Notes under the pieces: model-generated | Told to the model about the DNA's origin: nothing | What the model saw: only the letters and a program-made list of their open reading frames with translations | Databases searched by the model: none | Part shown: in pieces, positions 42,838 through 47,172 of the stretch | Layout: every line of letters begins with the position of its first letter | How positions within the stretch are numbered: position 1 is the stretch's first letter | From: Microbacterium excoecariae | GTDB lineage: Bacteria > Actinomycetota > Actinomycetes > Actinomycetales > Microbacteriaceae | Direction: 5' to 3' | Assembly (NCBI RefSeq): GCF_011326725.1 | Contig: NZ_JAANCO010000001.1 | Span: forward strand, 1 to 64,000 | DNA: 64,000 nt | Program-made: the position numbers and the translations under genes

Positions 42838-42957
42838 CAATTTGCGGTGGCGTCCTCCCGGGCGCGCGGCCCGCCCCGCACCCGGTCCGCGGCCGCCTCC
42901 TCGCGACCGCGATCCCCCCATGGTGCGCCCCGGATCCGCCCCGATCCACCCCGTGTG

Positions 42958-42977
42958 ACCGAACGGATCCGTTCGGT
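42958..42977. promoter_or_regulatory. 20-bp perfect palindrome at the LysR promoter
   Basis: ACCGAACGGATCCGTTCGGT fills the space between a possible -35 (TGTGAC, 42954-42959) and the -10 box TACTGT (42977-42982), touching both. It is a likely autoregulatory operator. Confidence 0.65.
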
Positions 42978-42982
42978 ACTGT
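42977..42982 (+). promoter_or_regulatory. -10 box of the LysR gene
   Basis: TACTGT, 6 nt before the ATG at 42989. Confidence 0.55.
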
Positions 42983-42988
42983 CGAACG

Positions 42989-43921
42989 ATGAGTACGGGA
43001 TGGAGCACGCACCGCCTGCTGCTCCTGCGCGAGCTGCAGCTGCGCGGCACGATCACGGCGGTCGCGGCCGCGCTGAACTACTCACCGTCGACGGTCTCGC
43101 AGCAGCTCGCGCAGCTCGAGCAGGAGGTGGGGGTCTCGCTGCTCCAGGCCGACGGCCGGCGCGTGCGGCTGACGGCGCAGGGCGAGGCGGTCGCGGAGCA
43201 CGCCGCGCGCGTCCTCGCGCTCGAGGAACGCGTGCGCGAGGACCTCGATCTCGACAACCCGATCCCGGCGCCCGTGCGCATTTCCGCGCTGCAGACCTCG
43301 GCGCGCGCGCTGCTGCCGCGCATGCTCGACATGCTCGCGGTGAGCCACCCCGGCCTCCGGATCGAGGCGTGGGTGGTGCCGCCCGAGGAGGGACTGTTCG
43401 AGGTCGAAGCGCGCGGTTTCGACCTCGTGATCGCCGAGCAATACCCCGGCCACACCCGCGAGCGACGGCCGGGACTCGACCGCGTGACGCTCGGGCGCGA
43501 CCCCATCCGCCTCGCCGTCAGCCCCGATTCGCCGATCCGCTCGCTCGAGGACGCGGCCGAGGCGCCGTGGATCATGGAGCCGGTGGGCACGGCCGTGCGC
43601 ACCTGGTCGGTGCAACAGTGTCGCGCCGCCGGCTTCGAGCCAGACGTGCGCTACAGCGCCGCCGACCTCCTCGCCCAGGTCCGCCTCATCTCGGCCGGGC
43701 ACGCCGTGGGGCTTCTCCCCGAGCAGCTGCTCGCGGGCGACGAGAGCCCGGTGCGGCTCATCGACCTCCCGGGCAACCCGCACCGCGAGCTCTTCACCGC
43801 GGCGAGGGAGTCCTCGCGCGAGTCACCGGGCATCGTCGCGGTGCGCCAGGCGCTCCGCCAGGCGTTCGGCGACGCGACCGCCGTGTTCGAGGATCCGCAC
43901 GCCATGCCCCACATCGACTGA
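42989..43921 (+). CDS. LysR family regulator, probably of putA
   Basis: This is a 310-residue LysR regulator. The helix-turn-helix lies in GTITAVAAALNYSPSTVSQQ, followed by LAQLEQEVGVSLLQ, and a two-lobed effector domain begins near residue 95 (APVRISALQTSARALLPR). Divergence from putA with operator-like repeats between them suggests proline-responsive control, which is an inference. The transcript is predicted leaderless. Confidence 0.9.
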   Translation: MSTGWSTHRLLLLRELQLRGTITAVAAALNYSPSTVSQQLAQLEQEVGVSLLQADGRRVRLTAQGEAVAEHAARVLALEERVREDLDLDNPIPAPVRISALQTSARALLPRMLDMLAVSHPGLRIEAWVVPPEEGLFEVEARGFDLVIAEQYPGHTRERRPGLDRVTLGRDPIRLAVSPDSPIRSLEDAAEAPWIMEPVGTAVRTWSVQQCRAAGFEPDVRYSAADLLAQVRLISAGHAVGLLPEQLLAGDESPVRLIDLPGNPHRELFTAARESSRESPGIVAVRQALRQAFGDATAVFEDPHAMPHID

Positions 43922-43941
43922 GGCCCGGGCGCCCCAGCCCC

Positions 43942-44006
43942 AAGTCCACATTTCTCCGGTAAGTCTCCGCGGATTCCGCGGAGACTTACCGGAGAAATGT
44001 GGACTT
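43942..44006. repeat. 65-bp palindrome, copy 1
   Basis: Perfect 32-bp arms (43942-43973 and 43975-44006) around a single T. The arm begins AAGTCCACATTTCTCCGG. It lies between the LysR gene and the convergent NUDIX stop, 7 bp from the latter, so it could act as a bidirectional terminator. The second copy, 721 bp away, is the same except at one base. Confidence 0.9.
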
Positions 44007-44013
44007 ACGCGGC

Positions 44014-44637
44014 CTACCGCAGCGCGCCGACGCTCGCGAGCGCCTGGCGGATGAGGGTGCCGCGGCCGCCCTCCATCTCGGCCGCGAGGGCGTCGGACGC
44101 CGCCTCCTCCGGCGACATCCAGGTCACCTCGAGCGCGTCCTGGCGCGGCTCGCACGTGCCCGTGACCGGCACGACGTACGCGAGCGACACCGCGTGCTGG
44201 CGGTCGTCGTGGAACGCGGACACCCCCGGCAGCGGGAAGTACTCGGCCACCGTGAAGGGCGCGGGCGACGGCGGCACCTGCGGGAACGCCATCGGGCCGA
44301 GATCGTTCTCGAGGTGGCGGAACAGCGCGTCGCGCACCGTCTCTCCGTGGCGCACGCGCCCCGACACGATCGTGCGCGTGAGCGACCCGACGCTCGTCGA
44401 GCGCAACAGGATGCCGACCTCGGTCACCTGCCCCGTGCCGTCAGTGCGCACCGGCACCGCCTCGACGTACAGGATCGGCAGGCGCCGGCGGATCTCGGCG
44501 AGTTCGACATCGCTGAGCCAGGCGGGATTGGCGGATCCGCCCGGCACCGCGCCGAGCCCGCTCATGCCGAGATCGCTCGAGAAGCGAGGGTCCTCGGGGA
44601 GGTCTTCGGGATCCGGATCGGGGGTGCGCACGGCCAT
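44014..44637 (-). CDS. NUDIX-like hydrolase of the DUF4916 type
   Basis: This is a 207-residue protein that resembles the DUF4916 branch of NUDIX-like proteins: LPILYVEAVPVRTDGTG, GILLRSTSVGSLTRTIVSGRV and GETVRDALFRHLENDLGP. The canonical NUDIX box with REUXEE is not intact (RDALFRHLENDLG stands in its place), so catalysis is uncertain. The ATG at 44637 is fixed by TACCGT 6 nt upstream. The gene is bracketed by two copies of the 65-bp palindrome. Confidence 0.78.
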   Translation of the reverse strand: MAVRTPDPDPEDLPEDPRFSSDLGMSGLGAVPGGSANPAWLSDVELAEIRRRLPILYVEAVPVRTDGTGQVTEVGILLRSTSVGSLTRTIVSGRVRHGETVRDALFRHLENDLGPMAFPQVPPSPAPFTVAEYFPLPGVSAFHDDRQHAVSLAYVVPVTGTCEPRQDALEVTWMSPEEAASDALAAEMEGGRGTLIRQALASVGALR

Positions 44638-44643
44638 GCGGAC

Positions 44644-44649
44644 ACGGTA
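44644..44649 (-). promoter_or_regulatory. -10 box of the NUDIX-like gene
   Basis: TACCGT, 6 nt before the ATG at 44637, and 13 bp from the second palindrome copy. Confidence 0.5.
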
Positions 44650-44662
44650 CCGCGCCCCGCCC

Positions 44663-44727
44663 AAATCCACATTTCTCCGGTAAGTCTCCGCGGATTCCGC
44701 GGAGACTTACCGGAGAAATGTGGACTT
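44663..44727. repeat. 65-bp palindrome, copy 2
   Basis: Arms 44663-44694 and 44696-44727 around a single T. It is identical to copy 1 except for A instead of G at the third base, which leaves one mismatch in the stem. Its last two bases belong to the copA stop codon, so it was placed exactly at the gene end. Confidence 0.9.
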
Positions 44728-46921
44728 ACGGGAGGCGGCGCAGACGCAGGCTGTTCAGGACGACGAACACCGAGCTGAACGCCATCGCGGCGCCCGCCAG
44801 CATCGGCGCAAGCAGGCCGAGCGCGGCGACCGGGATCGCGGCGACGTTGTACGCGAACGCCCAGAACAGGTTGCCGCGGATGATGGCGATCGTGCGGCGC
44901 GAGAGCCGCACGGCCTGGGCCGCGACGCGCAGGTCGCCGCGCACGAGCGTGAGGTCGCTCGCCTCGATCGCGACGTCCGTGCCCGTGCCCATCGCCATGC
45001 CGAGATCCGCCTGCGCGAGGGCCGCGGCGTCGTTGACGCCGTCACCGACCATCGCCACCTGGCGCCCCTCGGCCTGCAGGCGCCGGACGACCTCGACCTT
45101 CTCGGCGGGGAGGACTCCCGCGATGACGCGCTCGATGCCGACCTCGTCCGCGACGGCCCGCGCGGGCGCCTCGGCGTCTCCCGTGACGAGCACCGGTTCA
45201 AGGCCCAGCGCCCGCAGCTCCGTGACCGCCTGACGGCTCGTGGGCTTGACGGCGTCGGCGATCGCGATGACGCCGCGCGCGCGCCCGTCCCACGCGACCG
45301 CGACCACCGTCGCGCCCGAGGCCTCGGCCGCGGCGAAGCGGCGCGCCAGGTCCGAATCGAGCTCCGCGGCCCACTGCTCGAGCAGCGCGGGACGGCCCAC
45401 GACCACGCCGCGGCCCTCGACGACGCCCTGGGCACCCAGACCCGCGAGCGCGCGGAAGTCGGACACGGCGGGCGCGCCCTCCGCGGCCGCGACGATCGCG
45501 CGGGCGATGGGGTGCTCGGATCCGGACTCGACGGCGGCGGCGATGCGGAGAACCTCGTCCGCGTCCTCCCCCGCCGCGGCCTCCACGCCGCGCACGCTCA
45601 TCGAGCCCGCCGTGACGGTGCCCGTCTTGTCGAGCACGATCGTATCGATCGCGCGGGCGCGTTCCAGCGCCTGCGCGTCGCGGATGAGGATCCCGTGCTG
45701 CGCGCCCGTGCCGGTGCCGATCATGAGGGCGAGGGGCGTGGCGAGCCCGAGCGCGCATGGGCACGCGATGATGAGCACCGCGACGGCCGCCGTGAACGCC
45801 GCCGCGACCGGCTGGCCGAGGACGAGCCACGCCGCGAGCGTGCCGAGCGCGACGACGATGACGATGGGGACGAAGATGCCCGCGATCTTGTCGGCGATGC
45901 GCTGCGCGTCGGCCTTCGACGCCTGCGCCTGTTCGACGAGGTGGGCCATCTGCGCGAGCTGGGTGTCGGATCCGACGCGCGTCGCCCGCACCGCGAGCAC
46001 GCCGCTCGCGTTGATCGTGCCGCCGACGACGCGGTCGCCGACGCCCACCTCGACGGGAACGGGTTCGCCCGTCACCATCGACGTGTCGATGGCGCTCGCG
46101 CCCTCGAGGATCTCCCCGTCGGTCGCGACCTTCTCGCCCGGGCGCACGACGAACACGTCGCCCACGGCGAGCCGGTCGGCGGGAATGCGCACCTCGGTTC
46201 CGTCGGCCTGCCGCACCGCGACGTCCTTGGCCCCGAGGTCGAGCAGGGCGCGCAGCGCATCGCCCGCGCGCAGCTTGGAGCGGGCCTCGATGTACCGGCC
46301 GGCGAGGATGAACGCGGTCACGCCCGCGGCCGCCTCGAGATAGATAGAGCCGGATCCGTCCGCGTGCGTCGCGAGGAGGGACCAGCCGTGGCTCATCCCG
46401 ATCTCGCCGGCGGTGCCGAAGACGAGCGCGTACAGGCTCCAGCCGAGCGCCGCGAGCGTGCCGACGGACACGAGCGTGTCCATCGTGGCGGCGCCGTGGC
46501 GCAGGTTCGTCCACGCGGCGCGGTGGAACCCGGATCCGCCCCAGAGCACGACGGGCAGCGCGAGGGCCAGCGAGACCCACTGCCAGCCGGGGAACTGCAG
46601 CGGCGGGACCATCGCGAGGAGGACGACGGGAACCGTCAGCGCGACGACCGCCGCGAGCCGCACCCCGAGGGCGCGGACGTGGCGCCCCCGCGCGTCGGCC
46701 TCGTCGGGCCGCGGCAGGGTGGCGGCGTAGCCGGCCGCCTCGACGGCGCCCACGAGGTCGTCGGGGGTGAGATCCCCCTCCCACGACACGTGCGCCTTCT
46801 CGGTGGCGTAGTTGACCTCGGCCGTCACGCCGTCGAGCTTGTTCAGCCTGCGCTCGATCCGACCCGCGCATGAGGCACAGGTCATTCCCTGGATCTCGAG
46901 ATCCAGCTCGGTGGTGCTCAT
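44726..46921 (-). CDS. copA: Copper-exporting P1B-type ATPase
   Basis: This is a 731-residue ATPase that pumps Cu(I) out of the cell. An N-terminal metal-binding domain holds MTCASC (residues 13-18). Then come the membrane CPC site in [13 protein letters not shown], the phosphorylated Asp in DKTGTVT, SEHPIA, GDGVND and the conserved C-terminal NVAAIPVAA. It is the last gene of csoR-copZ-copA, 23 bp after copZ. Its TAA lies in the edge of palindrome copy 2. Confidence 0.95.
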
Positions 46922-46944
46922 CTCTCCTCCTCGCGATCCCGCGC

Positions 46945-47172
46945 TCAGGCGGGGCGGATCCCCAGGTCGCCGGGCGCGGCGAGCGCATACCCGGCCTCGG
47001 AGACGGCGGCGGCGACGGCCGCGTCGTCGATCTCGGGTGCCGTGACGGTGAGGCGGCCGGTCGCGAGATCGACGTCGACCTTCTCGACGCCCGCGATGTC
47101 CGAGACCTCCTCGGTGACGCTCATGACGCAGTGCTGGCAGGTCATGCCCTGGACGGTATAGGTCTTGTTCAT
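46945..47172 (-). CDS. copZ: Copper chaperone (heavy-metal-associated domain)
   Basis: This is a 75-residue ferredoxin-like metal-binding protein with the site MTCQHC (Cys12, Cys15). It passes Cu(I) to CopA and probably to CsoR. A strong ribosome binding site (GGGAGGAAA) precedes the ATG at 47172, and csoR lies 15 bp upstream. Confidence 0.95.

Follow-up and report, generated by a model that had tools for sequence, protein, structure and literature searches.

A family of 26 palindromes, each 64–66 bp long, lies at the 3' ends of genes in the 2.71-Mb genome of Microbacterium excoecariae; its members likely serve as hairpin terminators in both directions, and exchange between copies likely keeps them alike, a reading to which we give a probability of roughly 0.55. 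Two of the copies fall in the stretch of 64,000 nucleotides that was analyzed here (the window), where they bracket a NUDIX gene in the following arrangement:

43942..44006, no strand: palindrome copy 1, with 32-bp arms and a 1-bp center, between the convergent LysR and NUDIX genes
44663..44727, no strand: palindrome copy 2, identical to copy 1 except at one base, between the 5' end of NUDIX and the 3' end of copA
42989..43921, forward strand: LysR-family regulator gene, its stop 20 bp before copy 1
44014..44637, reverse strand: NUDIX/DUF4916 gene, between both copies, its stop 7 bp from copy 1
44726..46921, reverse strand: copA-like gene for a heavy-metal P-type ATPase, with a TAA stop (44728-44726) that overlaps copy 2

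The first-pass annotation had described the pair as two perfect palindromes with 32-bp arms around a single base, differing from each other at one position. The coordinates and arm structure are correct for copy 1 (arms 100% complementary), and the single difference lies at 44665; this change breaks one pair, so that copy 2 is not strictly perfect. The fit of the pair to gene ends was also described accurately, as the last two bases of copy 2 supply two bases of the copA stop codon and copy 1 ends just short of the NUDIX stop; the predicted NUDIX start lies 25 bp from copy 2. Of 17 listed inverted repeats in the window, only these two have arms of at least 30 bp, and the 18-bp outer arm occurs four times in the window (up to three mismatches) against 0.03 expected in shuffled sequence. 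The predicted RNA fold is very stable from either strand (−66 to −77 kcal/mol; z = −12 to −14 relative to shuffles). Rfam returned 10 matches near the copies, all under the family cut-offs and mostly to microRNA hairpins.

Searches of the whole genome with the 32- and 18-base arms brought the family to its total of 26, which bears out the earlier suggestion of a dispersed palindromic element, while a control with the reversed pattern gave no match in the same genome. All 51 genome matches to the 18-base outer arm (up to three mismatches) fall inside the 26 copies, i.e., not one is a solo arm outside a palindrome. A covariance model recovered the same 26 copies together with a weak match on one strand at C1:1637330 (22 bits), which was left out of the count. 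The outer 18 bp are near-constant across copies (AAGTCCACAWTTCTCCGR), and the inner 14 bp of the arms are variable and mostly still paired; the exceptions are three neighboring copies (C1:1938956, 1939673, and 1941657) with 6–9 arm mismatches. The cores of this trio, which occupies 3 kb (C1:1938956-1941721; L095:4057-6822), are non-palindromic yet mutually similar, and their neighbors are small genes (CAAX protease-like, GNAT, NUDIX); some of these also adjoin copies in the related genomes G098, G130, and G196. At C1:663229-668245 (L091:2229-7245) two identical copies flank a single gene of 1580 aa with lamin-tail and phosphoesterase domains; their variant is absent from all other of the 26 sites.

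Placement was counted against genes from a codon-based gene caller. The genes on either side are convergent for 18 of the 26 copies, tandem for 7, and divergent for 1, compared with 12 convergent gaps among the 51 gaps of the window (P about 1e-6); at one convergent copy (C1:943289) the tail of an amidase frame runs through the element. A gene 3' end is found within 100 bp of 25 copies, and the gene-end fit described for the window pair extends to 23 copies at a distance of up to 30 bp and to 19 at no more than 10 bp or in overlap. The flanking proteins belong to ordinary chromosomal families, with a Pfam match in 47 of 49. Placement is looser in the other species: for 118 copies from six genomes the counts are 61 convergent, 45 tandem, 11 divergent, and 1 unassigned, with a gene 3' end within 30 bp of 92 copies and none called within 300 bp of 14. 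Of 159 gene 3' ends within 300 bp of an element, 27 have stops that overlap it and a further 67 are no more than 10 bp away. An offset of −2 is the most frequent (23 of 159); in this arrangement the stop codon is composed of a T from the flank and the first two bases of the element. A split stop codon as the target was considered and rejected, because the right flanks do not consistently continue a stop codon. The base just outside the 26 copies is only C or T on the left and only A or G on the right (C..A 11, T..G 9, T..A 4, C..G 2), without a constant target duplication. Twenty of the 26 thus have one T-end and one C-end (Fisher P 0.015), so that the palindromes seem to hold a hidden orientation.

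That the palindromes act as bidirectional hairpin terminators is likely, as predicted from their position and fold: a hairpin of high predicted stability adjoins the stop codon. Neither a T-tract after the hairpins nor a canonical terminator was found in 42900-47000. Actinobacteria possess U-less terminators in which a strong hairpin directly follows the stop codon with no T-tract; the elements described here resemble these in both respects but, unlike them, form a dispersed sequence family. A hairpin formed in the RNA from either strand would end or protect the transcript just after the stop, and action on both strands would explain why copies persist mainly between convergent genes. The elements are candidate portable, symmetric terminators for high-G+C hosts.

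The arms change in step. In the alignment of the 26 copies both sides vary in 14 of 32 pairs, and its 831 cells hold 83 two-sided changes, 6 one-sided changes that keep a standard pair, and 32 unpaired positions; none of 500 shuffles reached the covariation measures of this alignment. An alignment of 49 copies from several species behaves alike (24 of 31 pairs changed on both sides; 337 two-sided, 30 one-sided, and 146 unpaired among 1519 cells) and reveals a skeleton of few near-constant positions per arm at roughly helical spacing. At arm positions 10 and 18 both arms agree in 26 of 26 M. excoecariae copies, where about 14–15 would be expected if they were independent, and positions 10, 18, and 19 occur in all eight possible haplotypes. 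The full set of haplotypes combined with equal arms suggests that unlinked copies swap stretches shorter than an arm and that the arms are then equalized; repeated mutation is the weaker alternative for the haplotype pattern. Four-gamete patterns were found for 14 of 45 position pairs in M. excoecariae and are rare in the other genomes (1/21, 2/55, 1/15, and 11/153), and the central arm positions are consistently unequal in genome G098, which limits the case for exchange and equalizing to M. excoecariae. Copies less than 3 kb apart are more alike there (P 0.012); the same comparison was not significant in G098 (P 0.17), G361 (P 0.08), or G196 (P 0.21), and G130 has no near copy pairs. Template switching is described as homogenizing the arms of inverted repeats in the accessible part of PMC8604942.

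Beyond M. excoecariae the exact arm is rare and the scaffold more widespread. The arm within one mismatch was found in 4 of 366 genomes of the genus: M. excoecariae itself, G098 with six matches of a variant, and G145 and G265 with a single non-palindromic match each. A covariance model built from the M. excoecariae copies (R1) has matches in 13 of the 366, and a second one (R2), built from the 49 copies of several species, in 24, of which 11 supplied copies to the model and match by construction. With up to 13 candidates scored per genome, and with a copy free to match on both strands, R2 gave at least 10 matches in 14 genomes and 1–4 in the other 10; G064, G113, and G359 are new bearers (12–13 matches each), while G276, with three R1 matches, is outside the 24. 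Fuller searches yielded 20 copies (40 matches) in G098, 58 matches in G361, and 67 in G196. Sampling of copies covered 25 out of about 29 for G361, 6 out of about 15 for G155, 28 out of about 33 for G196, and 13 out of the 14 listed for G130. When 398 genomes drawn from Microbacteriaceae were scanned with R2, nine matched; seven of these represent six other genera, with weaker matches that are partly of another length. The two-arm M. excoecariae pattern has no match in 84,980 species genomes or in viral contigs, and copy 1 gave no BLAST match among phage and plasmid records. Among the matches listed from open-access PMC articles, as far as their accessible text goes, no such palindrome family is described in Microbacterium, and none of the stem-loop families in the accessible part of PMC2267715 matches the Microbacterium palindromes.

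Each genome has its own dialect of the palindrome. Mean identity among copies is 0.72–0.87 within and 0.47–0.77 between genomes (six genomes; 112 of 118 copies, 6 being dropped for length or register), and in G196 three distinct dialects coexist (L260, L253, and L252). The sites themselves are partly shared: in a survey of 92 copies from five other genomes, for 8 of the 26 M. excoecariae sites both neighboring genes also flank an occupied site in another genome, namely G361, G098, or G130, and the site of window copy 2 is shared with G361. No site with both flanking genes shared was found with G196 or G155; G196 shares single flanking genes with M. excoecariae sites. Both genes were shared in 21 rows, of which 15 were compared and 6 dropped (three matches to LacI-type paralogues at 27–35% identity and three of a tandem triplet in G155). 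Among the 15 orthologous pairs, 13 show no greater similarity than cross-species pairs typically do, and the remaining two exceed most of these (top 8% and top 2%). The nine site pairs shared between M. excoecariae and G361, G098, or G130 compare with about 0.6 expected at random, an expectation that assumes about 2500 gene boundaries and would be a few times higher with a preference for convergent ends. Shared gene ends with species-own arms suggest that copies within one genome repeatedly replace each other's sequence. The first-pass annotation would have taken the window pair for a local duplication if no further copies existed and relatives carried both at the same place with diverged arms. 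Other copies were in fact found, and G361 does have one in the corresponding position whose arms have diverged; the latter points to concerted evolution rather than local duplication.

The end of the DUF3516 gene is the site with the widest record. A palindrome is present there in M. excoecariae, G098, G130, M. suaedae, M. sorbitolivorans, and M. gubbeenense (the copies of the last three were included in R2), while an R2 match is absent from 26 of the 30 loci searched. The arms at this site differ, with a resemblance between those of M. suaedae and those of M. gubbeenense, and the six bearers form one clade in a 28-row protein tree (support 100/100). At the same gene end M. oryzae, which adjoins this clade, carries an inverted repeat of another family, making repeated colonization of hot sites possible, and Agromyces albus and M. 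hominis also have other inverted repeats there, which indicates that repeats of more than one kind are drawn to gene ends. In M. oryzae a 73-bp tandem array directly follows the DUF3516 gene (L270:6003-6240), and its pattern AGTTCNNCACCACCGAGC (up to three mismatches) has 124+118 matches in the genome compared with 27+17 in the control.

How arms could be replaced at inherited positions may be pictured as follows. The two arms of a copy would be kept equal by hairpin-templated correction, either through folding of single-stranded DNA or through template switching at the near-palindrome, and recombination among dispersed copies would rewrite those at inherited positions, with newly spread copies perhaps also replacing some of them; such rewriting would give each species a dialect of its own. 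The broader proposal, that these are self-homogenizing palindromes without a RAYT, inherited in position for the age of a clade and rewritten in their arms by exchange and arm-to-arm correction, is put forward tentatively, at somewhat below even odds. Inherited sites with replaced arms would offer a natural test of the concerted evolution of 65-bp repeats in bacteria.

Known classes of repeats account for part of these properties. REP-like repeats are usually attributed to a Y1 transposase. A scan for the RAYT/TnpA_REP Y1 transposase (PF01797, E 0.001) found none in 14 Microbacterium genomes, which included 10 of the 14 element-rich ones (all except G026, G113, G115, and G116); the same profile matched 5 of 14 known genomes used as a control. 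REP-like behavior with no Y1 transposase found in these genomes would call for another route by which short palindromes are copied or homogenized. In the accessible parts of PMC3733652 and PMC3686654, REPs are intergenic palindromes that lie mostly between convergent or tandem genes, those between convergent genes being mostly no more than 20 bp from a 3' end in the two genomes described, and their lineage-specific classes may partly replace one another; REPs are defined by a tag at one end and a stem of 5–13 bp, and those with a CGTC tag have stems of 8–9 bp and no dedicated transposase linked to them (PMC3733652, same limit). The word “actinobacteria” does not occur in PMC3733652. The Microbacterium palindromes are likewise dispersed, intergenic, beside gene 3' ends, and divided into lineage-specific classes, and like the CGTC-tagged REPs they are without a linked transposase. 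Unlike REPs and REPINs they measure 64–66 bp, are near-perfectly symmetric, number tens of copies, and occur in Actinomycetota; their stem has 31–32 pairs, and no constant GTAG or CGTC tag was seen in the 26 and 49 aligned copies. The earlier label “REP/MITE-like” therefore stands for intergenic placement, gene 3' ends, and lineage-specific classes, but not for the RAYT, tag, and short stem. With MITEs the palindromes share small size, multiple copies, terminal inverted repeats, and the lack of a gene, but here the element consists of two arms and nothing else. Since the tests specific to REPs failed and the MITE traits are incomplete, we regard the family as a separate variant among palindromic repeats and read it as REP-like without a RAYT, predicted to provide bidirectional terminators and homogenized within genomes. 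Integron attC sites have RYYYAAC and GTTRRRY ends and bulged bases; this assignment was rejected, as most M. excoecariae copies have AAG/CTT ends and lack a constant bulge.

In a MITE-like alternative, a putative transposase would move a non-autonomous element that spread in lineage-own subfamily bursts, and new copies would have landed independently at the same permissive gene ends, the shared sites being hot spots rather than inherited. Multiple copies, near-constant length, and terminal symmetry agree with it, bursts explain the several subfamilies of G196 as well as conversion does, and the different repeat family at the M. oryzae DUF3516 gene end also fits hot spots. However, in the absence of solo arms (up to three mismatches) no larger element or autonomous partner with these ends was found in M. 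excoecariae, there is no constant target duplication, and a scan of 20 proteins encoded beside or between copies in four genomes showed no cognate transposase or recombinase (3 of 20 have no Pfam match, and the others belong to families of metabolism, transport, and regulation). Against hot spots also stand the excess of shared sites over the random expectation and the single clade formed by the bearers of the DUF3516 site. We consider this alternative unlikely, although it carries more weight than the two that follow.

A DNA signal bound by a protein (for uptake, nucleoid, or partition), found at gene ends because insertions elsewhere do harm, would fit the near-perfect dyad symmetry, the near-constant length, and the near-invariant positions at roughly helical spacing. 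Neisseriaceae uptake words have 10–12 bases and are also common singly and inside genes. According to the accessible part of PMC3630211, uptake sequences in that family come in species dialects and as inverted pairs at terminators, a likeness in both dialects and gene-end placement. With just 26 copies and with no single arm outside a palindrome among the 51 arm matches of M. excoecariae the palindromes differ from such a signal, and binding alone leaves the free yet in-step variation of the inner arms unexplained; this explanation is improbable. Least probable is that these are ordinary terminators, separately selected hairpins that are alike just through recent local duplications. Gene-end placement agrees with it, as do the unrelated G+C-rich hairpins in some other convergent gaps of the window, but the outer arm is common to 26 dispersed loci and the scaffold recurs in 24 of 366 genomes of the genus, and we know of no ordinary terminators that share arm sequence across a genome; arms shared genome-wide contradict it.

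The proposal that recombination between the two window copies could delete or invert the gene between them found no counterpart in relatives. NUDIX is a core gene (361 of 366 genomes), and wherever copA adjoins it order and orientation are the same, namely in the 3 of 29 relatives' loci with copA within 1.5 kb (G361, G064, and G098, the last with about 1 kb between the genes); at the other 26 loci copA is not nearby, so they are uninformative on rearrangement. The palindrome pair is thus without visible rearrangement of NUDIX. In the 80 bp shown between copA and NUDIX in G064 there is no such palindrome; this genome carries the family elsewhere. A cassette idea, in which modules of element, gene, and element arise by crossing-over, was also rejected. 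G196 has two sites where two copies surround 5–8 kb and M. excoecariae has one copy, and its two flanking pairs are 51% and 82% identical; the lower value does not support simple recombination between like copies at that site. In G155, three near-identical copies form a local array of about 530 bp, the stretches between them being free of called genes (L239:2398-2930).
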